64,000 nucleotides of DNA. Source: Syntrophales bacterium (GTDB lineage: Bacteria > Desulfobacterota > Syntrophia > Syntrophales > UBA8958). Below the pieces are notes generated by a model. That model was not told the origin of the DNA. It worked only from the letters and a program-made list of their open reading frames with translations, and made no database searches. A program made the translations under genes and the position numbers. Of this stretch, positions 23,829 to 45,047 are shown piece by piece (position 1 is the stretch's first letter; each line of letters begins with the position of its first letter). The stretch spans positions 1 to 64,000 of the forward strand of contig JAOAFE010000006.1 in NCBI GenBank assembly GCA_026416455.1. The letters are read 5' to 3'.

Positions 23829-24653
23829 TCATCTTAAGTAGGTATGCAGACCCGGTAGGTAGTTTACACCCAGATAGGTAAATAGCACGCAGGCGAAACC
23901 AACAAGAGACAGAAAGGCAGCCTTTTTACCTCGCCAATTGCGGACGAAACGACCGTGCAGGAAGAGGGCATAGACGAGCCAGGTAATTAAAGACCACGTT
24001 TCTTTTGGATCCCAACTCCAGTATGAACCCCAGGCATAATGGGCCCATACAGAACCGGTAAAGATACCGAGAGTGAGAAAGACAAAACCGAGGGCGATCA
24101 TCTGATACAAGAGTTCATCGATCATATCTCTTTGGGGTAGAAGGCGAGAGATGATAGATTCTTTTCCAGCGATGAAGTACATGAGGCCAAGTCCAAAGGC
24201 GCAGGAAAAAGCTGCGTACGCGAGGAAGCACGTGAGAACATGGCTCGTGAGCCAGTTACTTTGCAGGGCCGGGATTAAGGGCTGAATTGTGCTTTCTACT
24301 GAAGGAGAGAAAGATGCGTAGGCGAGTAGAAGAAAGGCTATGGGTAAGGAGAAGACGCCTAGCATCCGGTTTTTGATCCTTGCCTCTACGAGCAAATACA
24401 GGCCACAGACGCTCCAGGAGAAAAAGACCAGCGATTCGTAGAAATTGGTAATTGGCACGTGTCCGGTGCTGAATACGTAAGTAAGGCGCCAGCGGATGAG
24501 AAGGGCAAACGTATGGGCAAAGAACCCAAGACGAGAAGTCCAAGTGGCAATTGTTCCCCACCAACGACCGGGAAAGATAACGTGAAGGAGATAGCAGAAA
24601 AAAGCCCCGAAGTAGACAAAGGTAACAATGCTTAGAAGTTTTGCATCCATCAT
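23829..24653 (-). CDS. ccsA: Cytochrome c biogenesis protein CcsA/ResC (system II)
   Basis: It is the haem-handling membrane subunit of the system II cytochrome c synthetase. It is about 274 residues with eight hydrophobic segments. The conserved tryptophan-rich WWD segment is WGSYWSWDPKETWSLITW near residue 215, and external His residues bracket it. The ATG overlaps the resB stop by 4 bases (ATGA), so translation is coupled. It ends a gene run encoding three multiheme cytochromes, which are its natural clients. Confidence 0.93.
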   Translation of the reverse strand: MMDAKLLSIVTFVYFGAFFCYLLHVIFPGRWWGTIATWTSRLGFFAHTFALLIRWRLTYVFSTGHVPITNFYESLVFFSWSVCGLYLLVEARIKNRMLGVFSLPIAFLLLAYASFSPSVESTIQPLIPALQSNWLTSHVLTCFLAYAAFSCAFGLGLMYFIAGKESIISRLLPQRDMIDELLYQMIALGFVFLTLGIFTGSVWAHYAWGSYWSWDPKETWSLITWLVYALFLHGRFVRNWRGKKAAFLSLVGFACVLFTYLGVNYLPGLHTYLR

Positions 24654-25984
24654 GTCACGAGTTTACCTATTAAATAAGATACGTCTCTTTTTAGGGTTGA
24701 GATGTCTCTTGCGGCCGTGCCTTCTATGGACACACGCCATAGATGTTCATCCTTCTCCCAGCAAATCTTAAGTGTTCTGGGTGATATAAAGTAAGTCACA
24801 ACTAGGCCAAAGACAATAATGATGGCCGCGACTCCAACCAACAGGGCGCCCGGATCACGTTTGACCTGCAATCCCGAGTAGTAGTTACTTTGGAACTCCT
24901 CAAGGATGAAGTGATAGGGGGAATAAAGGCGAGGATTTAGCATCTTAAATTCTTCAAGAATACCTGGATGCGAGGCGAGTATTTTTTCTATGTGCTTAAA
25001 TACCCAAAAAACAAATTCCCCGCGATCGGATTGTATTGACAGTTTGACAGCTGGCCCCATGTGCATGAGATTATTTTCTGTTCGCAAAACGAGGACTCGT
25101 GTCTTTTCTTCTCTGGGTAGGGGGAATTTTTGGCCTTCTTTAACCTTTATTTCTCCCACTTTTTCCGATTTAACAAATATTCCCAATTTTGCCTCTCCAC
25201 CCGTCTTCTCACCATAACTCGCCTGGTAGATTCTAAAACCTTCCACCTCGATGGGATGGTTTACCATCAGGGCGGCTTGGATCGATCTTCGGTCATCTTT
25301 GATAATTTCCAAGTCCGACCTATACTGTTTTGGCATACCGTTCTCGTAAAATTCCACCGTAAATTTCTTAAGATGTATTTCGAAGGGCAAAGTATAAGTC
25401 TGCCCCATTTTTTTACCCGTCTCAATGCGGTTGATTGTTTCTCCCTCACCAATATTCGCGTACCCTTCTATCCCGAATACGGAACTTAAAAAAGTACCCG
25501 CGATGAGAACCAGCACTCCCGCATGAACGATGTAAGGTCCTAGATAGGAACTGAGGCCAGCTTTACCTTCAACTTCCGTTGCCTGAGGCGCAGGGGGGGT
25601 TTTATATAACCTCTTTTTTAGCAACGATGTGACTTTGCTCTTTATGTCCTCTACCTCGAGAGGTAGCCTTATTTCTTCTCTTATTTTGAATTTTACCTGC
25701 ACCTGATCTCCGCGAAACCTTCTCCATGCTTGCGGTAGGCGGGTAAGTGAGCAAAAGATAATGTTTATCGACAGCATGACCATGACAAAGTAGAAAATGT
25801 AGGAGTGAAAAATGTCGTACATCTGAAGATGGTAAAGAATTTTCTGCCCGCCGAAGACTTCATCCGGTTTTTCCTGAGGGACGAAAGTGCCGATTATTCC
25901 AAGGACGGCGAGGATAAAGAGGAGGGCCAATGTAAGCCTAATAGACGCCAGAATATCTATAAATCCCGTTCTTAAATGTCTCAC
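24650..25984 (-). CDS. resB: Cytochrome c biogenesis protein ResB/Ccs1 (system II)
   Basis: It is the partner of CcsA in attaching haem to CXXCH apocytochromes on the outer face of the membrane. Three transmembrane segments lie in the N-terminal half (about 10-30, 60-80, 145-165), a large periplasmic domain follows, and a last transmembrane segment near residue 395 precedes a short tail. GTG start with AGG upstream. It follows the cytochrome b fusion gene by 21 bases, so these genes are probably one transcript. Confidence 0.9.
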   Translation of the reverse strand: MRHLRTGFIDILASIRLTLALLFILAVLGIIGTFVPQEKPDEVFGGQKILYHLQMYDIFHSYIFYFVMVMLSINIIFCSLTRLPQAWRRFRGDQVQVKFKIREEIRLPLEVEDIKSKVTSLLKKRLYKTPPAPQATEVEGKAGLSSYLGPYIVHAGVLVLIAGTFLSSVFGIEGYANIGEGETINRIETGKKMGQTYTLPFEIHLKKFTVEFYENGMPKQYRSDLEIIKDDRRSIQAALMVNHPIEVEGFRIYQASYGEKTGGEAKLGIFVKSEKVGEIKVKEGQKFPLPREEKTRVLVLRTENNLMHMGPAVKLSIQSDRGEFVFWVFKHIEKILASHPGILEEFKMLNPRLYSPYHFILEEFQSNYYSGLQVKRDPGALLVGVAAIIIVFGLVVTYFISPRTLKICWEKDEHLWRVSIEGTAARDISTLKRDVSYLIGKLVT

Positions 25985-26005: not shown

Positions 26006-27808
26006 TCAGAATATAGCAGCCCAGAATATCATAAATGCGAGAATTAAGCCTAAAATGAGGCTCCCCAGGCCAAAAAGGGAAGCAAAAAGTTGCGTTCCAA
26101 TGCCGGGTGCGTCTTTTTTTATTTCCTCCAGCCTTCCTTCTGCTAGCATCCTTTCGTATTCCAGTGGTCTCTCTATTTTCATGGTCTCCAAGGGGTAGCG
26201 ACCGGTGAAGATGTTTCTTTCTAGGGGAAACTTAGTGGGAACCAGGTGATTGTTGAAGAAGTGAACGGTAAAGATAAAAATGGCAGCCAAAAAAGCTTCT
26301 TCCGAATGGACGACCATGGCTACATTGATCATCCAACCGGGAAGAAGATAGGAGAATAGACCGGGAAACCAGAGAATGAAACCGGAGAAACCTATAACGG
26401 TCATGCCCCAGAAGACGGCCATGAAGTCGAACTTTTCCCAGTATGTCCAACGGTCGAATTTGGGCATTTCTCCACGGTGGAAGAACCATCGGAACATGCC
26501 CACGATATCCTTTAAATCTTTCAGGTTTGGAAAGAGGGAGTCGGGACCTAGAAGTCTTTTTACCCATCCACTTTTTTCACCCTTAGGGAATAAAAATTTA
26601 AAGCTTAACCAGCAGGTATAAAGGAACAGGAGGCAAAGAGTGATCGCCGCTATCCGATGGAACGTGCCTGCCGCGTGCGGTCCGCCCCAGAAATTCAATA
26701 GCATTTTAGCCCACGGTGCATCTGCATATTTAATGGGAAAACCGGTAAGGACGAGAATGAAGAATGAAATGACGAGCAAGACATGCATCATTCGATCCCG
26801 GAAAGTAAATCGCTCCACCTGTTTTTCCCCTGGTAAGGTTACCTGAATGAGTTTTTTCCCTTCCCGGTATTTTTCTAAGTACGCCCGTCGCCACCAGAGG
26901 AGGGAATGAGTCCAGAAAAAGGCAAAGGTACCCGTAAGTAAGGCGATCATGAATACGTTGACCCAATAGACGATTCGACTTCGCTTTGGATCGGAGGGAT
27001 TGGGATGAGGATCGAATTGCACGAATCTCTTGTGCATGATCGGGTGGCAACTCCGACAGGTATGGTAAAGATTGTCTGGGTGGATGGCCGAGGCGCTATC
27101 CGTTTTTGGCAAGGTGTTGTGGCCCGTATGACAGTCGGCGCAACCGGCCACTTTGTCCGTGTATCCGACCCTCAAAACTTTACCGTGGTAAGTCTCATAA
27201 TAACTTTTAACCGTTTGTGTTGAAAACTTATTTCTTTTGGCGATCTTTACGTTGCCGTGGCACGAAATACATCGTTTGGTATAGGTTTCCCGTGCTAAAG
27301 ATTGGGCCTTCTCAGAAGCCAGGTCGTAGACGGAAATGTTATGGAGCCCATGACAATCAGCACAGCTTGGGGCATCCATATTTCCCGCTTCCAAAGCTCG
27401 GCCGTGTCCACGTAAAACATAATTCTCCCTTGGATGACATTGGTTACAAGATGAAAGCGACCGACCTCGCTTGAGGGCGTGGATGGGTTGATGGCAATCC
27501 TGGCAGGCCATGTTTAATTTGACATTGTGCACATCTCGTCGGTACTTTTGAAATACGTTCTGATGGCATTTGGCACAGTTTACTTCCTTAGCTCGGTCAT
27601 TACCCTGCATGTGCAATTCGAGCCGACTGACACCGTCATGACAACTGCGGCAACTTAGAGTTCGATGAATCGATTTGTAAAAAGATATATAATCTATTTT
27701 ATCGGCGTGGCATTGTTTGCAGCTCATCTCTTCGCCTTTGGCCACGAGAGGAAAAGATAAGAGACCGAGGAGAAAGAACATTATTCGAAGAGAAGAGACG
27801 CTTTTCAT
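26006..27808 (-). CDS. Nine-haem c-type cytochrome fused to membrane cytochrome b (CbcL-like)
   Basis: The likely role is quinol oxidation at the inner membrane with electron output to periplasmic carriers. A signal peptide (1-27) is followed by nine CXXCH motifs over about 270 residues. A C-terminal region (about 275-600) with hydrophobic segments contains paired histidines, as in HydC/FdnI-type dihaem cytochrome b. Geobacter CbcL has the same plan of nine c-haems plus dihaem b. I chose ATG 27808, two bases after the upstream stop, over a GTG at 27838, because a clean signal peptide then begins at residue 1. It may also accept electrons from a dehydrogenase. Confidence 0.87.
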   Translation of the reverse strand: MKSVSSLRIMFFLLGLLSFPLVAKGEEMSCKQCHADKIDYISFYKSIHRTLSCRSCHDGVSRLELHMQGNDRAKEVNCAKCHQNVFQKYRRDVHNVKLNMACQDCHQPIHALKRGRSLSSCNQCHPRENYVLRGHGRALEAGNMDAPSCADCHGLHNISVYDLASEKAQSLARETYTKRCISCHGNVKIAKRNKFSTQTVKSYYETYHGKVLRVGYTDKVAGCADCHTGHNTLPKTDSASAIHPDNLYHTCRSCHPIMHKRFVQFDPHPNPSDPKRSRIVYWVNVFMIALLTGTFAFFWTHSLLWWRRAYLEKYREGKKLIQVTLPGEKQVERFTFRDRMMHVLLVISFFILVLTGFPIKYADAPWAKMLLNFWGGPHAAGTFHRIAAITLCLLFLYTCWLSFKFLFPKGEKSGWVKRLLGPDSLFPNLKDLKDIVGMFRWFFHRGEMPKFDRWTYWEKFDFMAVFWGMTVIGFSGFILWFPGLFSYLLPGWMINVAMVVHSEEAFLAAIFIFTVHFFNNHLVPTKFPLERNIFTGRYPLETMKIERPLEYERMLAEGRLEEIKKDAPGIGTQLFASLFGLGSLILGLILAFMIFWAAIF

Positions 27809-27810
27809 AG

Positions 27811-28542
27811 CTATTTTCGTTTCTTCGATCTTTCCCACGCTAACATGCCCCCGTTTAGTCTGCTAATTTCCCGAAACCCCTTTCTTACTAAATAAGAAGC
27901 GGCAAGTAGACTTTTGGTTCCGTCTTCATCCACTACCAATAGGGGACGGCCGAGGGGAATATCTTGATAACGTTTATGAAGAAGGGATAGGGGAATGTTG
28001 ACCGCCTTTTCGATGTGCTTGACTTCAAAGGACGAGGTGGGACGGATGTCAAGGATAATGGCATTTTTATTTGCCTTTAGCCATTCCTCACATTCAGTGG
28101 CCGGAAGGGAAGGGACGAAGGCACGGGGTATCCTTTCCACCGATTCAGTTTCATAGCCCGCCCATTTCCAAGCCGGAAGCCCGCCTTGAAGAATGTATAT
28201 TTGATTATAGCCCAGTTCTAAAAGCTTTTCCGTCAATGGGCACTTGGTTTTTACGTTTATCGCTCCGTCATAGATAACCACCTTCGTGTTTTTCTTTTCC
28301 GGTAGGTGATTTTTGATGTTGGGTTCATCGCAGGGAAGACAAATAGATCTCGGTATTCGCGTGTCCATGCACTCAAGATAACTATTTACGTTGATGAGAA
28401 CAAACGTTTCCCCATACTGCATCCACCAATTGAGTGTCTTGGGGGTAATGATATTCACGCCCGCTTCGGCTCCTTTTCCAAGAGGTAGAGCGCATAGAAG
28501 AGAGAAGATTATAAAAAAATTAATGCGTTTTTTTTGTATCAT
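27811..28542 (-). CDS. Secreted double rhodanese-like protein lacking both catalytic cysteines
   Basis: A signal peptide is followed by two rhodanese folds (about 30-135 and 140-235). The position normally held by the persulfide-forming cysteine is Asp in both: VVIYDG and LLVVDEDGT. The two folds are otherwise intact, with typical GGLPAWKWAGYE and NGGMLAWER ends. It therefore is unlikely to transfer sulfur and may act as a binding or structural partner. It starts 3 bases after the 8-haem cytochrome and ends just before the CbcL-like gene. Confidence 0.8.
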   Translation of the reverse strand: MIQKKRINFFIIFSLLCALPLGKGAEAGVNIITPKTLNWWMQYGETFVLINVNSYLECMDTRIPRSICLPCDEPNIKNHLPEKKNTKVVIYDGAINVKTKCPLTEKLLELGYNQIYILQGGLPAWKWAGYETESVERIPRAFVPSLPATECEEWLKANKNAIILDIRPTSSFEVKHIEKAVNIPLSLLHKRYQDIPLGRPLLVVDEDGTKSLLAASYLVRKGFREISRLNGGMLAWERSKKRK

Positions 28543-28545
28543 CTT

Positions 28546-30447
28546 TCACTGTTCGGCCGGGATGGATTGCAGACCCCATATCTTAAACTGGGGCACACAA
28601 TTTGGTTCTCTCATCGTCGGGTAATCGAATAGGAGAAAATCTCTCAAATTTACGATTTCCATTCGACGGAAGAAAGGAGCAACGGAGCCATGGCAGGAGA
28701 GGCACCCCTTGAGAGCCGTTTTCTTTTCTTGAACCCCATGGACAACGGGATAGTATACTTTTGGGACAGCATCTTTTCTCACTTCCACCTTGTTGCCCGA
28801 AAGAATGTACGCCCGGTCATGGGCAATCAGCGCTGGTTTATCAAACCCAGCTTTCTTTAAGCGGCTAAATATGAGCCACATATCATTTTCTTTTGCGATA
28901 AAAGGCCTTTCTCTTTCTATCTTGATTCCCTTGGTGGCTGCTTTTACATATCTCAAAGGTATGGGGTAGTAATGACCTTTTTCTTCTTGGGCAAACCAGA
29001 AAAGCCATTTGGGTACTACCGGTTCGTATCTAGTTGAACGAAACATCCACGGGCTCCAAATTTGAGGTGCGGGGAGAAGGTAATCTCCTTCCTCTTTAAC
29101 TCTCTCTAGATTATCTGCCACGTATGCTGCCTCATATCCCTGACTCATGTCAAGAAGGAGAAGGGCCCGCCCTGGGCGTGTGGATGCATGACAGACCATG
29201 CAATTAAGCAGGTACGTGTGAAATTGATAGCCTCTGAAGGCACGACTATGGGTATGATATGGGTTGGGTGCCTTCGTTGGCAGGCCGGCCCGCCCTGGTT
29301 TGTATTTACCCTCTACATGGCAAAACTCGCATGTTTTCATTTCTTTTCCGTCAAGATCGTCCCTGACCCTGTTGGTCAAGGAGTGTCCTTTGGCAATTTG
29401 ATGGGCTAGGCGTTCCGATTTTGTATTACCGAGTAAAGGGTGACAATCGGTACATATGAACCCCCGGCTTAGGTGGACATCATGGTTGGGACTCATCATC
29501 GTGCCCGTATTTTTTTTCTCCCCCAAGTCATGGCATTGGAGACAATTTTTAGTGGATACGATCCTGCTTATGGCGCTACCCTTCAATCGGCCTTCGGGGG
29601 TGAAGAGGTTCCGGTCGGACCAGCGATATCGTACGACGGGCCTCCTTTCCACATTCCACGTACCTTGGTAAAATGCCGGGTCTGATGGATCGGCGGTCTT
29701 CAAATGGGGAGTAAATATTTCGCCCTCAATCGTGCCCAATCTGGCCCCCGCCGTAGCTGCCCAACGATAATTTCTCTTACTCAATTGGATGTTCCTTTCC
29801 CTCATGTCGTAATTCTTTAGATGACAGATGAGACAGTCTGCTTCTACCACTCCGCTGATTTGAAAGAGGCTTTTGCCAGTCGGCGTATCGAGGGAGGAAT
29901 AATCACCATCAAAAGGATGCGAGCTATCTTTCTCTCCGGCCATGAGGTTTTTGGAGAAGTCCGGGCGTCCCTGGCGGTTGCGGCCGTATTCCATCGGCCC
30001 ACCTCCGGGATGACAGAAGCCGCAGGCAGAGGCAATCAATTTGCCGTCGCGGCTGTAACGTCCTCCCCGTCCAATCCAATCGTAGGTCGAGAGGTCCATC
30101 GTTTTGGGGTCTTTATTTACCTTCGGCGATATCCGCCCCGCCGCTGCGGTGGGTAACCAACGCCCGAACATACCAGGGGAGAGGAGCCAAGGTCGTTGGG
30201 GATCGAATCTATCGCTGATGGTTTCAAATCCTTGAGTGAAATGATACCCCGAAGTGATGAGGCGATAATCGTGGCATCCTCCACATGTCTGGCGGGGAGA
30301 GTAAGGGTCGATGCTGTTAGATTGAGGACTAATCCGGTCTCCCATTTCGTTTTTTAACCACACATCTATGTGGGCGTGAGCGAAAAAGGGTGAGAAAAAA
30401 AAGATGATAAAGACGAAAATAGAAGTGAGTCTAAAGATTAAACCCAT
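28546..30447 (-). CDS. Eight-haem secreted c-type cytochrome
   Basis: A signal peptide (cleavage after FFAHA) is followed by eight CXXCH motifs across 633 residues (CGGCH, CGFCH, CLICH, CLQCH, CTDCH, CEFCH, CMVCH, CLSCH). Spacing is loose, about 15 to 150 residues, unlike compact cytochrome c3 or octaheme nitrite/tetrathionate reductases. It probably carries or delivers electrons in the periplasm. It follows the rhodanese gene at 30506-31348 across a strong terminator, so its expression may be attenuated. The terminal acceptor is unknown. Confidence 0.85.
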   Translation of the reverse strand: MGLIFRLTSIFVFIIFFFSPFFAHAHIDVWLKNEMGDRISPQSNSIDPYSPRQTCGGCHDYRLITSGYHFTQGFETISDRFDPQRPWLLSPGMFGRWLPTAAAGRISPKVNKDPKTMDLSTYDWIGRGGRYSRDGKLIASACGFCHPGGGPMEYGRNRQGRPDFSKNLMAGEKDSSHPFDGDYSSLDTPTGKSLFQISGVVEADCLICHLKNYDMRERNIQLSKRNYRWAATAGARLGTIEGEIFTPHLKTADPSDPAFYQGTWNVERRPVVRYRWSDRNLFTPEGRLKGSAISRIVSTKNCLQCHDLGEKKNTGTMMSPNHDVHLSRGFICTDCHPLLGNTKSERLAHQIAKGHSLTNRVRDDLDGKEMKTCEFCHVEGKYKPGRAGLPTKAPNPYHTHSRAFRGYQFHTYLLNCMVCHASTRPGRALLLLDMSQGYEAAYVADNLERVKEEGDYLLPAPQIWSPWMFRSTRYEPVVPKWLFWFAQEEKGHYYPIPLRYVKAATKGIKIERERPFIAKENDMWLIFSRLKKAGFDKPALIAHDRAYILSGNKVEVRKDAVPKVYYPVVHGVQEKKTALKGCLSCHGSVAPFFRRMEIVNLRDFLLFDYPTMREPNCVPQFKIWGLQSIPAEQ

Positions 30448-30505: not shown

Positions 30506-31348
30506 TTACTCTACGGGTGCGTTGGGGTCTAGGGCCCACTCTTCATAAGAGCCATCGTAGACCCTGACGTTTGTATAACCTAGAAGTTCGGTGAGCACAT
30601 AGGCCCAGCTGGTAGCCAACTTTCCCGAGTCGCAATAAATGATGATTTCTTTCGCTTTATCCGTTCCTACGATGGGGGTGACGATCTTTTCCAGATCCTC
30701 TTTTGATTTGTACGTAAGGTCATCCTTGAAGATGGCCGTTGCCGGTACGTTCTTTGAATTCTTTATGCGTGGGGTCCGCACGTCCAGAATGAGGGCGGTA
30801 TTCAGCTTATCCATCACTTCTTTTTTCCCTACAAAGAGCTTTTTGTTGATCTCTCCTTTATAAGGAGGTCCCGCTTTTTCCTCGATGGCCGTGGAGAAGG
30901 GACGCTTCTCTTGTATCCATTTATTGTAACCACCTTCTAAGACGGCCACATCTTTTATGCCCATATAGAGGAGGGTCCAGGCCACGCGGAAGGCATCCAT
31001 TTTTTCTGAGAATGTATCCCAACTGGATACAACAACGACTTTGGAATCTTTGTTAATACCGGCCAGTCCAATCAGATCCGGCAAGTCGTAGTCAGCAGGA
31101 AGTTCGTTATTCAAAACCTTTCTCTTGACCGCCCATGCACCGTAGGCGACGTTTGAAGCATTGGGAATGTGGCCGGCCGCATAGGCTTCTCCCTTCCTTA
31201 CGTCGAGAATAACCAGATTGGGAGAGAATAGATTATCTTCTAACCATTGGGTCGTTACAATGGGATCAATGCCCCTCGCTCCCGCCGAAAGGGGTAAAGC
31301 GATCATAAACGCAAGCAAAAAAACCGAGAAAAACGCCAATTTCTTCAT
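30506..31348 (-). CDS. Secreted double rhodanese (thiosulfate sulfurtransferase; ExtH-like)
   Basis: A signal peptide (1-23) is followed by two rhodanese domains (about 25-135 and 150-280). The second keeps the catalytic Cys (IIIYCDSGKLATSW); the first has Ser at that place (VVVVSSWDT). A perfect AGGAGGT precedes the ATG. The Geobacter extHIJKL conduit also has a rhodanese-like protein, ExtH, so this gene's place beside multiheme cytochromes is suggestive. The substrate is unknown: sulfane sulfur, selenite or thiosulfate are candidates. 57 bases separate it from the upstream cytochrome. Confidence 0.85.
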   Translation of the reverse strand: MKKLAFFSVFLLAFMIALPLSAGARGIDPIVTTQWLEDNLFSPNLVILDVRKGEAYAAGHIPNASNVAYGAWAVKRKVLNNELPADYDLPDLIGLAGINKDSKVVVVSSWDTFSEKMDAFRVAWTLLYMGIKDVAVLEGGYNKWIQEKRPFSTAIEEKAGPPYKGEINKKLFVGKKEVMDKLNTALILDVRTPRIKNSKNVPATAIFKDDLTYKSKEDLEKIVTPIVGTDKAKEIIIYCDSGKLATSWAYVLTELLGYTNVRVYDGSYEEWALDPNAPVE

Positions 31349-31405: not shown

Positions 31406-32653
31406 TTAGCGGCTAATGTCTCGTAGCCTGAATATCAAATTTTTGTTTTCTTGGGAACCCTCTTTTATCAATTTTTCCGCTGTCAGAAAGTCCTTCCTCT
31501 CCACATGACAGGCATCACACGACTGGGTGCGGTCCGTTTTCTTTCTGATGTTATGTACGGGTGAGTCCCAGTAATTCGGCAATTTATCATAGTTTTCCAT
31601 TTTTATTCCCACATCTTTGAAGGTATCCCGTGCCGTCGGCACGAGGCGCAAGGTAGTAAACATTTTACCGTTTCTTGGACTTTTACCCAGGTAAATTTCG
31701 GGATAGGATTTCGATCCCTTCTCTAAGTGGCATTGCTGACAATTGCGGTAGGCGGAGGCCACGTGGCAGCCGTAACAACTGACTTTCCCCTGGTGTGTCT
31801 GATGGGCGGTTCGCGTTGTAAGTTTTGGCTCGTTGCCTAGTTTATGGCATTTCGTGCAGTTGGGTCTGTCTTTCACCTCTCGCATGGATTGATAGAAAGT
31901 GCCGTCACCGTGGAGTTCCGTTTTTTTATGGCAATCCATGCACATCATTCCTTTTTGATAGTGGATGTCCGGTGCCTCTCCGTATTCACCCGTATATTCC
32001 GTGTATACCCTGCCACCGTGGCAGAAGGCGCACGTTTTACTTTCATTTCGGCGCACGAATTTGTGATTTTTGATGAGACCGATACTAATACCTCCTACCG
32101 GTTGCGCTTTCACATGGCAGGCGCCGCAGGAGGCATGGCAGGTGCGACACGATTTTTCAAACACCCGGTCTTCGAATATTTTTTTCTCTCCCTCGCCCAG
32201 GCGGGGGCTTATTCCCTTTTTAAGACCGGCCGTGGTGTAATGGAGAGATTTAGCGTACGTATCGACGATTGCCTTATGGCACATGGCACATACTTTAAGG
32301 TCAGAAGAAGGTTTTTTTACGAGACCTTTATGCGCTGCCTCCTTATTGGTGGCCTTATCGTCCCCTTTATGGCAAAATTTGCAGCCTAAGGAAAAATGGG
32401 GATCCGATTTAAGCAGATTGGCATCTACTACGAGCCCTTTATACATTTCTTCCGCCCGAACCGGGGGAGGGGCGCCCGCTCACCCTTCTCCCTCGCCAGC
32501 TGGAATGTGAGGTGGGCGGTAGAGAGATTTCATAATGGATTCGTTTGTATGGCAACTAACACAGCTCGATGTGTCTCCAAGGGAAGGAAATAAAAGCATG
32601 AAGACCACCATTACGATGAGCAGACAATTAGATCTGATTAACGATCTCTTCAT
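31406..32653 (-). CDS. Eleven-haem c-type cytochrome with in-frame TGA (candidate selenoprotein, ExtKL-like)
   Basis: A signal peptide and first haem site (CVSCH) occupy the first 57 codons. A TGA at 32480-32482 (codon 58) interrupts, and the same frame continues with ten more CXXCH motifs to 31406. The two open frames are exactly in phase, so a frameshift is excluded. Without reading the UGA, the ten-haem part lacks a signal peptide and could not receive haem. A SECIS-like hairpin follows the UGA. The proline-rich segment (AGAPPPVRAEEM) is coding-like. By memory, Geobacter ExtK and ExtL were later treated as one UGA-containing protein, which fits. A nonsense mutation is the alternative. Confidence 0.65.
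32452..32482 (-). promoter_or_regulatory. Candidate SECIS element of the eleven-haem cytochrome
   Basis: UGA (32482-32480) is followed after 11-14 bases by CCCG-GUU-CGGG, a four-pair stem with a GUU loop, extended past one C.C mismatch by two more pairs. Its distance and G/U loop resemble the formate dehydrogenase SECIS in this window. The region is GC-rich, so the fold could be accidental. Confidence 0.45.
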
Positions 32654-32676
32654 GCTTTTTCCCCTGGATGTGAGTT

Positions 32677-33151: not shown

Positions 33152-33886
33152 ATGGAAAGGGAAGGAAGGAACGGGATCGAAGAACTAAATGATGAAGAGC
33201 TGGTGGGTTTCATTCTTGATGTCTTCCATCGTGCTGTGATCCATCATGGACTTTGGTTTTCTGAAGTCATACACCAGGAAGGGTTGGAAAAAGCCTTGGA
33301 CATTGCCTTTCAAGTAAAAAAGAAAAGTATCCCTCTTCAAGTAGAGAGATTGAAAAAAATTTTCAGTTTACCACAGGATTACACGGCTCTAATATCACGG
33401 GAAAGGCTTTTGAATTTACTTGACGCCTTGGCCATAAATTGGTTGGCCAACGACGGCATTTGGTTTCAGACAGTGGAATCGGTAAGGCATATGAATGATG
33501 CCAAAAGATGCAACGATTCTTGTTGGGCGAAGTTCTCCCCCTTCGAAGCACGGGCGATTAAGGATTTTCTAGGTTTACCTGTACGTCCAGGCCTGGAGGG
33601 ATTGAAACGAGCCCTTAAATTTCGCATCTATGCCCGTATTAATGTGCAATCAATCGTCGAAGAAGGTCCGGATAGGTTTATCTTCTTCATGAATGATTGT
33701 CGGGTACAATCGGCCAGGAAGCGTCGCAATCTTCCGGACTACCCCTGCAAATCGGCAGGCATGGTTGAATACGGTCGTTTCGCCGAGTTTATAGATGACC
33801 GCATTGTATGTGAATGCATTGCCTGTCCTCCGGACTCCCATCCTGAAGATTGGTTTTGCGGCTGGCGTTTTTCCCTCCAAGAATAA
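33152..33886 (+). CDS. Conserved cytosolic protein, DUF6125-like
   Basis: A 244-residue soluble protein. The N-terminal 90 residues are helical and the C-terminal half has spaced cysteines (CNDSCW, NDCRVQ, YPCKSAGMVEY, CECIACPPD, WFCGWRF), which could bind a metal cluster or be redox active. I associate it with the DUF6125 family of anaerobic Desulfobacterota, from memory. It follows the metallopeptidase by 18 bases, so the two are probably co-transcribed. No function is known to me. Confidence 0.6.
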   Translation: MEREGRNGIEELNDEELVGFILDVFHRAVIHHGLWFSEVIHQEGLEKALDIAFQVKKKSIPLQVERLKKIFSLPQDYTALISRERLLNLLDALAINWLANDGIWFQTVESVRHMNDAKRCNDSCWAKFSPFEARAIKDFLGLPVRPGLEGLKRALKFRIYARINVQSIVEEGPDRFIFFMNDCRVQSARKRRNLPDYPCKSAGMVEYGRFAEFIDDRIVCECIACPPDSHPEDWFCGWRFSLQE

Positions 33887-42344: not shown

Positions 42345-45047
42345 ATGGGCGATAAAATAGAAATAATTATCGACGAGAGAAAAGTGTTTGCTGAACCGGG
42401 GGAAACGATTCTCCACGTGGCAAGGAGGGAGGGTATTTTCATTCCCACCTTATGTCATTATCCGGGTACGACCAATGTAGGGGCCTGCCGTATGTGCGTG
42501 GTCGAAGTGGAAGGGATGAGGTCCTTGGTTGCCGCCTGTGCAATGCCCGTAAGCCCCGGTATGAGGATCAAGACGGATACAAAACGTGTTCGGGATGCTC
42601 AGCGGATCATTCTGGAATTGCTTTGGGCGGCTGGCGATCATAACTGTCTTACATGCGAAAAAAACGGGGCGTGTGAGCTCCAGGATCTGATCTATCGTTT
42701 TGGCATAGAAGAGCCCCGTTTCAAGATTACACCTCCTGGCTATGAAAAAGAAGAAACGAGCGTCATGATCGCCAGGGACTTAAACAAATGCATACTCTGC
42801 GGACGCTGTGTGCGGGCGTGCAATGAAATACAGGTAAACGAGGTGCTCGATTTTTCGTATCGCGGATCGAGGGCCAAAGTAGGACCCGCTTTCGACACGG
42901 ATTACCGGAGTTCGGAATGTTACTTTTGCGGTGAGTGTGTAGATGCCTGTCCCGTTGGGGCCATTACCTTTAAGCCGGCCCGATTTAAAGGACGTCCTTG
43001 GGAAGAAAGAAAGGTAAAGACGACGTGCACCTATTGCGGTGTCGGTTGTCAGATGGATCTCCATGTCTTTGACGGCAAAGTATTTAAAGTATCCGGCAAC
43101 GCTGCTTACGGTGAGCCCAATGGGGGAAGCCTCTGCATTAAAGGCCGCTTCGGTTTGGAATTCATCCATCATCCGGCACGCCTTCGAGTACCCCTGATTA
43201 GGAGAAAGAAGGGCGGTGATTTGGAAGAGGCGACATGGGAGGAGGCCCTTGATTTTGTTGCCCAGCGGCTTAGGGAGATTAAAGAGAAGTACGGGGCCAA
43301 CAGCATTGCCGGCCTTGCCTCGGCCAGAGCGACAAACGAAGAAAATTATATCTTTCAGAAATTCATACGGGGGGTCATTGGGACCAACAACGTTGACCAC
43401 TGTGCCCGTCTCTGACACTCCGTAACGGTAGCCGGTCTGGCTGCCACCTTCGGTAGCGGTGCAATGACTAATTCAATCAAAGAATTGGAAACGACAGACC
43501 TCATCCTGGCCACGGGTACTAATACGACGGAAAATCATCCCGTCGTAGCCAAGATGGTAAAACGGGCCGTAAAGTTTAACGGTGCGAAGCTCATCGTCAT
43601 CGATCCGAGAAAGATCGACCTAGTTCGCTATGCCGATTTATGGCTCCGTCAACATCCCGGTACGGATGTAGCGGTATTCAACGGTCTTATGCATGTAATT
43701 TTAAATGAGGGGTTAGAGGCAAAGGAGTACATCAGAGAAAGGACGGAAGGCTTCGACGCCTTGAAAGAGGTAGTGGCCAAGTATACACCGGAGTATGTGG
43801 AGTCCATATCGGGCGTTCCCGCAAAAGACCTTGTGCGGGCAGCGCGCATGTATGCCCAAGCCCCGCGGGCTGCTATTATATACGCCATGGGGCTTACCCA
43901 ACACATAACAGGAACGGATAATGTAAAATCTGTAGCCAATCTCGCCATGCTTTGCGGAAACGTGGGCATTGAAGGTGGGGGGGTTAATCCCCTACGAGGG
44001 CAGAATAACGTTCAGGGTGCCTGCGATATGGGTGCCTTGCCTAATGTGTTTTCCGGTTATCAGTCTGTAGAAAGTCTGGAGGCACGGGATAAGTTTGAAC
44101 GGGCATGGAAAACAAAGCTTCCGGATAAGAGCGGCCTTACGATCGTGGAGATGATGCATGCGGCAGTGGAGGGGAAGATCAAAGCAATGTATATTATGGG
44201 CGAAAATCCCATGCTTTCGGACCCTGATTTGACCCATGTAGAGGAAGCCTTAAAAAGTCTTGATTTTCTTGTTGTTCAGGAACTCTTCCTTTCGGAGACG
44301 GCCAGACTTGCTGATTGTGTCTTTCCGGTTGCTTCTTTTGCCGAGAAAGACGGGACTTTCACCAACACGGAAAGACGGGTACAGAGGATAAGAAAGGCGG
44401 TTGATCCACCTGGTGAGGCCAAGGCCGATTGGGAGATTATTGCCCAGGTGGCGACTCGAATGGGTTACCCGATGGACTACCACTCGGCCGAAGACATTTT
44501 CGAAGAAATAAGAAAGGTAACTCCAAGTTATGCGGGCATTTCTTATGAGCGACTGGAGCAGGGAGGTCTCCAGTGGCCCTGTCCTACCACTGACCATCCG
44601 GGCACCCGTTTCTTACATAAGGATAAGTTTACCCGAGGGAAAGGTTTGTTTACGGCTATCGAATACATACCGCCGGCAGAATTACCAGATGAAGAATATC
44701 CGTTTTTGTTGACGACGGGTCGTGTCCTGTACCATTACCATACAGGTACCATGACTCGCCTGTCTCGTGGGGCAGTGGAGAGGTATCCCGAAAGCCGGGC
44801 CGAAATAAATCCGGTAGATGCGAGGCGTCTTAATATCGGAGAGGGTGATGAGATTCGTCTTACCTCCCGGCGGGGGGAGGTAAGGGTTAAGGCCACCATT
44901 ACGGAGAAGTCACCGCCGGGCGTCGTGTTCATGAATTTTCACTTCCATGAAGCGCCCGTCAACATCCTTACCAATCCGGCCTTGGATCCGATAGGGAAGA
45001 TACCCGAATTGAAGGTCTGTGCCGTGCGGGTGGAAAAGGTGTCGTGA
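42345..45047 (+). CDS. fdhA: Selenocysteine formate dehydrogenase, NuoG-like catalytic subunit (Sec357)
   Basis: A 900-residue cytoplasmic formate dehydrogenase. The N-terminal 220 residues form the 2Fe-2S and 4Fe-4S modules: [37 protein letters not shown] and [15 protein letters not shown]. The molybdopterin domain follows with [16 protein letters not shown]. The codon after VDHCARL is TGA (43413-43415), and downstream HSVTVAGL completes the active-site motif of Sec-containing FdhA (E. coli FdhF: CCARVUHGPSVAGL). A near-perfect SECIS follows. Frames before and after are in phase, so it is one gene, not two. No partner (NuoF- or HydABC-type) subunit follows; moaE overlaps by 4 bases. Confidence 0.95.
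43413..43445 (+). promoter_or_regulatory. SECIS element of fdhA
   Basis: The UGA is followed by 11 bases and then GGUAGCC-GGUCU-GGCUGCC, a 7-pair stem (43427-43433 with 43439-43445) with one U.G pair and the loop GGUCU. Both loop and spacing match the well-studied E. coli fdhF SECIS. It directs SelB-dependent selenocysteine insertion. Confidence 0.9.

Follow-up and report, generated by a model that had tools for sequence, protein, structure and literature searches.

The in-frame UGA at codon 58 of a multihaem cytochrome gene is predicted to be decoded as selenocysteine (Sec), giving one exported eleven-haem cytochrome. The probability of this reading is put at about 0.93, in the absence of direct proof of Sec insertion. 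Insertion, the location of the protein and its chemistry are inferred, while the reading frame, conservation, covariation, decoding machinery and gene linkage were computed. The gene lies on the minus strand of the window, by which is meant the whole stretch of 64,000 nucleotides that was analysed, and comprises 415 codons in one frame (32653..31406) with a sole internal TGA at 32482-32480, codon 58. Its parts are as follows.

31406..32653, minus strand: selenocytochrome gene with signal peptide and 11 CxxCH motifs, predicted to be read through UGA codon 58 to 415 aa (from frame and relatives).
32579..32653, minus strand: signal peptide, approximate, residues 1-25 (from sequence; a hydrophobic N-terminus precedes haem 1 in most 11-haem relatives).
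32549..32563, minus strand: first haem motif CVSCH, residues 31-35, 5' of the UGA (CxxCH invariant in 87 aligned members).
32480..32482, minus strand: in-frame UGA, predicted selenocysteine, codon 58, motif GEG-U-AG (same codon in 117 distinct sequences).
32451..32468, minus strand: bSECIS-like hairpin, +12 to +29 after the UGA, loop GUU at +19 to +21 (32461-32459) (from comparison and folding).
31409..32479, minus strand: ten-haem body 3' of the UGA (from sequence and relatives).

Translation of 32659..31406 (minus strand) with TGA read as U gives MKRSLIRSNCLLIVMVVFMLLFPSLGDTSSCVSCH...GEGEG-U-AGAPPPVRAEE..., which confirms the statement of the preliminary description that signal peptide, CVSCH and ten-haem body share one frame interrupted by the TGA alone. 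One of the 11 CxxCH motifs (CVSCH) is found before the UGA and ten after it, and Pfam Cytochrome_C7 matches the protein above cut-off. The promoter proposed earlier, TTGACA-17-TAGAAG, is present as letters upstream but was not passed by a consensus scan.

The ORF caller reports the ten-haem body only (31406..32446, minus strand, 346 aa), starting at an ATG 3' of the TGA. Routine annotation would therefore deposit a ten-haem protein without an export signal, and a truncated "MYKG..." ORF recurs repeatedly among the clustered neighbour genes of named relatives. Until the readthrough is recognised, cytochromes of this type would be misannotated in the organisms that have them, and anyone expressing the truncated ORF in another host would be working with the wrong protein. 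The called split is exactly what is expected if the UGA is a true stop, separating a short exported haem peptide from a ten-haem protein that begins at a later ATG. However, attachment of c-type haem requires export, and the body alone has no signal peptide, as had been claimed from the sequence.

The UGA is conserved among relatives. Of 149 genomes from the same order, 67 gave relatives in a protein search. Almost every full-length relative has exactly one TGA in the aligned stretch, and the TGA positions coincide (GEG-U-AGAPPPV). In species-level genomes of Bacteria and Archaea a scan turned up 267 relatives; plasmid records contained none. Because 79 of the 80 best named relatives among these 267 carry TGA at codon 58, the remaining one having Ala, the presence of an in-frame UGA at this codon is far beyond chance. 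The named sources include Syntrophus, Smithella, other Syntrophaceae, Syntrophorhabdaceae, Geobacter sp. OR-1, Desulfonema magnum 4be13 and MAGs labelled Spirochaetes and Rokubacteria. Apart from these MAGs, the relatives with the UGA are spread across Desulfobacterota.

The phylum-wide search yielded subfamily B, with 33-41% identity and the motif GEG-U-GG[A/E]VAPLEP. The alignment of homologues proposed in the preliminary description was made with 117 distinct sequences of the UGA plus 33 nt, 90 from subfamily A and 27 from subfamily B, which share the motif G-U-[A/G]G. The fixed codon is UGA in every one of them and never UAA or UAG, contrary to what a true stop predicts. G57-U58-A59-G60 is invariant in 61 aligned subfamily-A members; over both subfamilies the G before Sec is found in 87/87 and the G two positions after it in 84/87. 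Two variants of this plan were seen. A small group on a long branch (L202, L204 and L206) has VAG-U-GVSAPQ or GVTAPQ, with a rhodanese-like start downstream of L204. The 17-haem versions (L039, L043, L045 and L047-L050) have a six-haem N-terminal part fused to the protein, so that seven haems lie on the N-terminal side of the UGA and ten on the other; the reading frame up to the UGA is here long and itself haem-bearing.

In three exceptions a sense codon takes the place of the UGA, for Ala (L030, identical to L096), Trp (TGG, L059) and Tyr (L201, by alignment). Each encodes one uninterrupted polypeptide, so the frame runs through where a true stop would end it, and each is nested among Sec members in the tree, although L201 is on a long branch and its placement is less sure. 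The genome of the Ala member (74% complete) shows no SelA, no SelB over the cut-off and no tRNA-Sec over the threshold, while a remnant of the hairpin is still present in the gene; this is possibly a recent loss of Sec decoding. In L059 the site is TGG although the genome has SelA, SelB and tRNA-Sec and the hairpin is intact, and either a real change or a sequencing error could be the cause. The three losses of Sec went to Ala, Trp and Tyr, and some lineages may therefore be able to do without Sec. The Cys homologues that had been expected were not found, no Cys form at the Sec site being seen among the relatives compared. Selenoprotein searches that depend on Cys homologues (PMC12013277) would therefore miss the family.

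The hairpin after the UGA was also part of the preliminary description. The stem CCCG-GUU-CGGG is present 15-25 nt after the UGA, and below it UCC pairs with GGA, with C26 bulged. Folded alone, the window hairpin gains no stability over shuffled versions of its GC-rich sequence (z = +1.0), and the proposal is upheld only by its covariation in relatives. The significance of the hairpin comes only from this comparison. Free energy compared with synonymous-codon shuffles gave a modest effect (mean z -1.1), and the counting of pairs is the informative test.

In subfamily A the stem is formed by +12-17 with +24-29, and the loop has GU at +19/+20 in 88/88 sequences. Among 35 representatives 95% of cells are paired, with 8 double-changed cells against 1.1 expected, a value reached in 0/500 shuffles; sliding the stem partner destroys the covariation signal. 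In subfamily B 89% of cells are paired, with 22 double-changed cells against 5.4 expected (0/500 shuffles), and the signal drops at every slide. Further pair types in this subfamily number 14 against 8.7. Some of its members have GGCUCC/GGAGCC changed to GGAGCC/GGCUCC, by which the residues APLE become EPLA and the pairs are kept. The shuffle control ignores relatedness, a weakness not shared by the slide control or by the sequence-divergent subfamily B. Conservation of the stem could partly be explained by conservation of the protein motif. Covariation in both subfamilies is the outcome of the stem comparison that the preliminary description had suggested, and is not expected around a true stop; together with the fixed UGA, the sense-codon members and the missing signal peptide it makes a true stop very improbable. 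Two second copies (L053 and L054, about 45% identical) lack residues after Sec, and here the hairpin can re-form from shifted bases.

The genome of the window has the machinery to decode UGA as Sec, with SelA (617 bits), SelB (374 bits) and tRNA-Sec (77.9 bits, threshold 47). Co-occurrence with SelB is uninformative within the order because 137 of the 149 genomes pass the cut-off. A second gene of the window also has a UGA at a Sec site.

42345..45047, plus strand: fdhA-type gene with UGA at the Sec site 43413-43415, CARL-U-HS, the second predicted Sec-UGA in the window (from sequence and hairpin).

The inference that this genome reads UGA as Sec, earlier drawn from fdhA, is supported by both gene and machinery. 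The likeness to the fdhA hairpin in spacing and G/U loop also holds, with GU at +20 in the window fdhA and at about +19 in the cytochrome, and nearly the same spacing. As in FdhA-type bSECIS elements the hairpin directly follows the UGA and has a loop GU at about +19 to +20, but its stem sequence is another one and it encodes a Gly/Pro-rich loop. UGA codon 58 would be decoded by SelB and tRNA-Sec, directed by the bSECIS hairpin immediately downstream. Selenocysteine at codon 58, as first proposed, is supported by the fixed UGA, the covarying hairpin, the sense-codon members, the Sec machinery and the presence of fdhA as a second UGA gene. An assembly error, a pseudogene or reassignment of UGA to tryptophan, for which the TGG of L059 might speak, is practically excluded and was rejected on the conservation of the UGA, since isolates and MAGs of many families share it, UGA ends a window gene at 28546-28548, and ordinary codon reassignment does not require a covarying hairpin.

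A multihaem cytochrome with Sec was predicted earlier in Geobacter sulfurreducens, where ExtKL (GSU2937-GSU2936) is encoded together with the rhodanese ExtH in the ext cluster (PMC5877670, PMC6148476). The parallel to ExtK/ExtL drawn in the preliminary description is a loose likeness only. Both are exported multihaem c-type cytochromes with one in-frame UGA, encoded with a rhodanese, but ExtKL has five haems and then Sec in NKAGHxIPDG-U-PTPNR, whereas the window family has one haem, Sec and ten haems. The model NF040886, with which ExtKL relatives were located, did not match the window protein or the 61 members, and had no match in the window's own genome. In a profile comparison 24 columns around one haem motif align, with no shared Sec region. 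Membership in ExtKL was rejected on the different motif and place of Sec, the lack of a match to NF040886 and the lack of similarity in the Sec region. Tandem matches to the ExtKL model without an internal TGA were seen in two genomes (G181 and G352), of which G181 has a separate ExtKL copy with one; the tandem copies could show what replaces Sec in ExtKL.

Other known families also differ. The octahaem tetrathionate-reductase family TIGR04315 is likewise multihaem with a Sec form annotated in GenBank (PMC13188914), but of 61 members just 6 show any hit to it, with E 1.2e-4 at best, and the window protein shows none. The GSU2204 family (NF041027, CxxCH/MtrB-PioB-like selenoprotein, PMC13188914) also has Sec in a CxxCH-containing protein but is listed as an outer-membrane beta-barrel type, and NF041027 gave no match. 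The models of ExtM, ExtN and ExtO (NF040943, NF040967 and NF040968) show weak similarity over haem-motif stretches, at 39, 29 and 30 bits against cut-offs of 800, 200 and 200. The window protein reaches the cut-off of no NCBIfam model. The 119 families in a 2026 inventory of prokaryotic selenoproteins (PMC13188914) include ExtKL, GSU2204 and the octahaem form, and the window family is not among them. A literature search for a Sec undecahaem cytochrome gave nothing fitting; its coverage was incomplete, and a description elsewhere is possible. On the available alignments the selenocytochrome founds a predicted selenoprotein family with two main subfamilies, not homologous to ExtKL around Sec. 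This adds a widespread family, with 267 relatives in one genome scan, that is truncated by UGA-blind annotation.

The cytochrome gene is followed by a tight gene run, with overlaps or gaps of less than 60 bases, which is closed by the genes for ResB and CcsB.

30506..31348, minus strand: two-domain rhodanese (thiosulfate-sulfurtransferase-like) with signal-peptide-like N-terminus and active-site loop YCDSG, conserved partner (from profile and neighbours).
28546..30447, minus strand: octahaem cytochrome, 8 CxxCH, in the same tight run (from profile and neighbours).
27811..28542, minus strand: second rhodanese-domain protein (from profile and neighbours).
26006..27838, minus strand: nine-haem c-type domain fused to a membrane cytochrome b (from profile and neighbours), a CbcL-like layout.
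24650..25984, minus strand: ResB-like cytochrome c maturation protein.
23829..24653, minus strand: CcsB cytochrome c maturation protein (TIGR03144 above cut-off).

A DUF6125 protein of unknown function (window 33152-33886), divergent from this operon, was not found near the cytochrome in named relatives.

Of the 77 subfamily-A loci whose contig is long enough, 58 have a rhodanese directly downstream; its active-site Cys is conserved and mostly lies in YCD[S/T]G. Most subfamily-B loci with sufficient sequence beyond the cytochrome likewise have a rhodanese as the next gene, here usually of the single-domain type.

The structure of the protein is only partly accessible. There are 9 invariant non-motif histidines against 11 haems, and up to two haems would thus be without a conserved distal His. 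The AlphaFold model has a pLDDT of 70, falling below 50 around Sec, where it is unreliable. A search of the PDB for folds like that of the model had no result (best E 5.7), as expected for a model without haems and with this pLDDT; a profile search of PDB sequences gave short haem-motif stretches only.

In a possible mechanism, the Sec selenolate is carried by the flexible Gly/Pro-rich loop linking haems 1 and 2. There it would work with the periplasmic rhodanese of the adjacent gene, taking sulfane sulfur from the rhodanese persulfide or giving sulfur to it, while the haem chain would carry electrons to or from an inner-membrane quinone module, here the nonahaem-cytochrome b protein. Sulfur chemistry with the rhodanese is inferred from gene linkage, with direction and substrate unspecified, and falls somewhat short of an even chance. 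No Cys homologue is available to anchor thiol chemistry, and the link to the rhodanese is genomic only. More tentative still is the full proposal, a respiratory selenoenzyme in which sulfane sulfur would pass between a loop with Sec, never Cys, and a periplasmic rhodanese dedicated to it, by way of a Se-S bond at a haem without distal His, coupling the quinone pool to sulfur chemistry. To our knowledge no selenium-sulfur-haem catalytic centre of this kind has been characterised.

Sec could instead be an axial haem ligand, or serve in an active site that acts on a metal or metalloid (selenite, tellurite, Fe), with no part in sulfur transfer. The surplus of haems over invariant histidines, with two haems lacking a conserved distal His, would fit such a role; the analogous ExtH/ExtKL set belongs to a cluster linked to selenite and tellurite reduction (PMC5877670), and the window rhodanese touches the ExtH model. 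This is nevertheless considered unlikely, as the window gene run has no recognisable porin or outer-membrane conduit and the losses of Sec to Ala and Trp fit poorly with an essential ligand. Less probable again is that the protein is mainly a periplasmic electron wire, as multihaem chains usually are; Sec would then sense redox state or have a protective role, and the rhodanese would serve maturation or sulfide housekeeping. The maturation genes at the end of the run agree with this, but the adjacency of a rhodanese in two divergent subfamilies, with different rhodanese types, is more than housekeeping suggests. As a second, unrelated pairing of a rhodanese with a selenocytochrome besides ExtH/ExtKL, the family suggests that selenium recurs as a solution in multihaem electron transfer. 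In syntrophic and metal-reducing bacteria the pairing also connects selenium with sulfur or extracellular respiration in a way that can be tested.

The Smithella-type loci mostly lack an adjacent rhodanese, as in L085 and L087. These two, together with L113 and L118, are situated near flavin-binding Tat-signal proteins, a six-haem cytochrome, a Rieske-like protein and a twelve-haem cytochrome.
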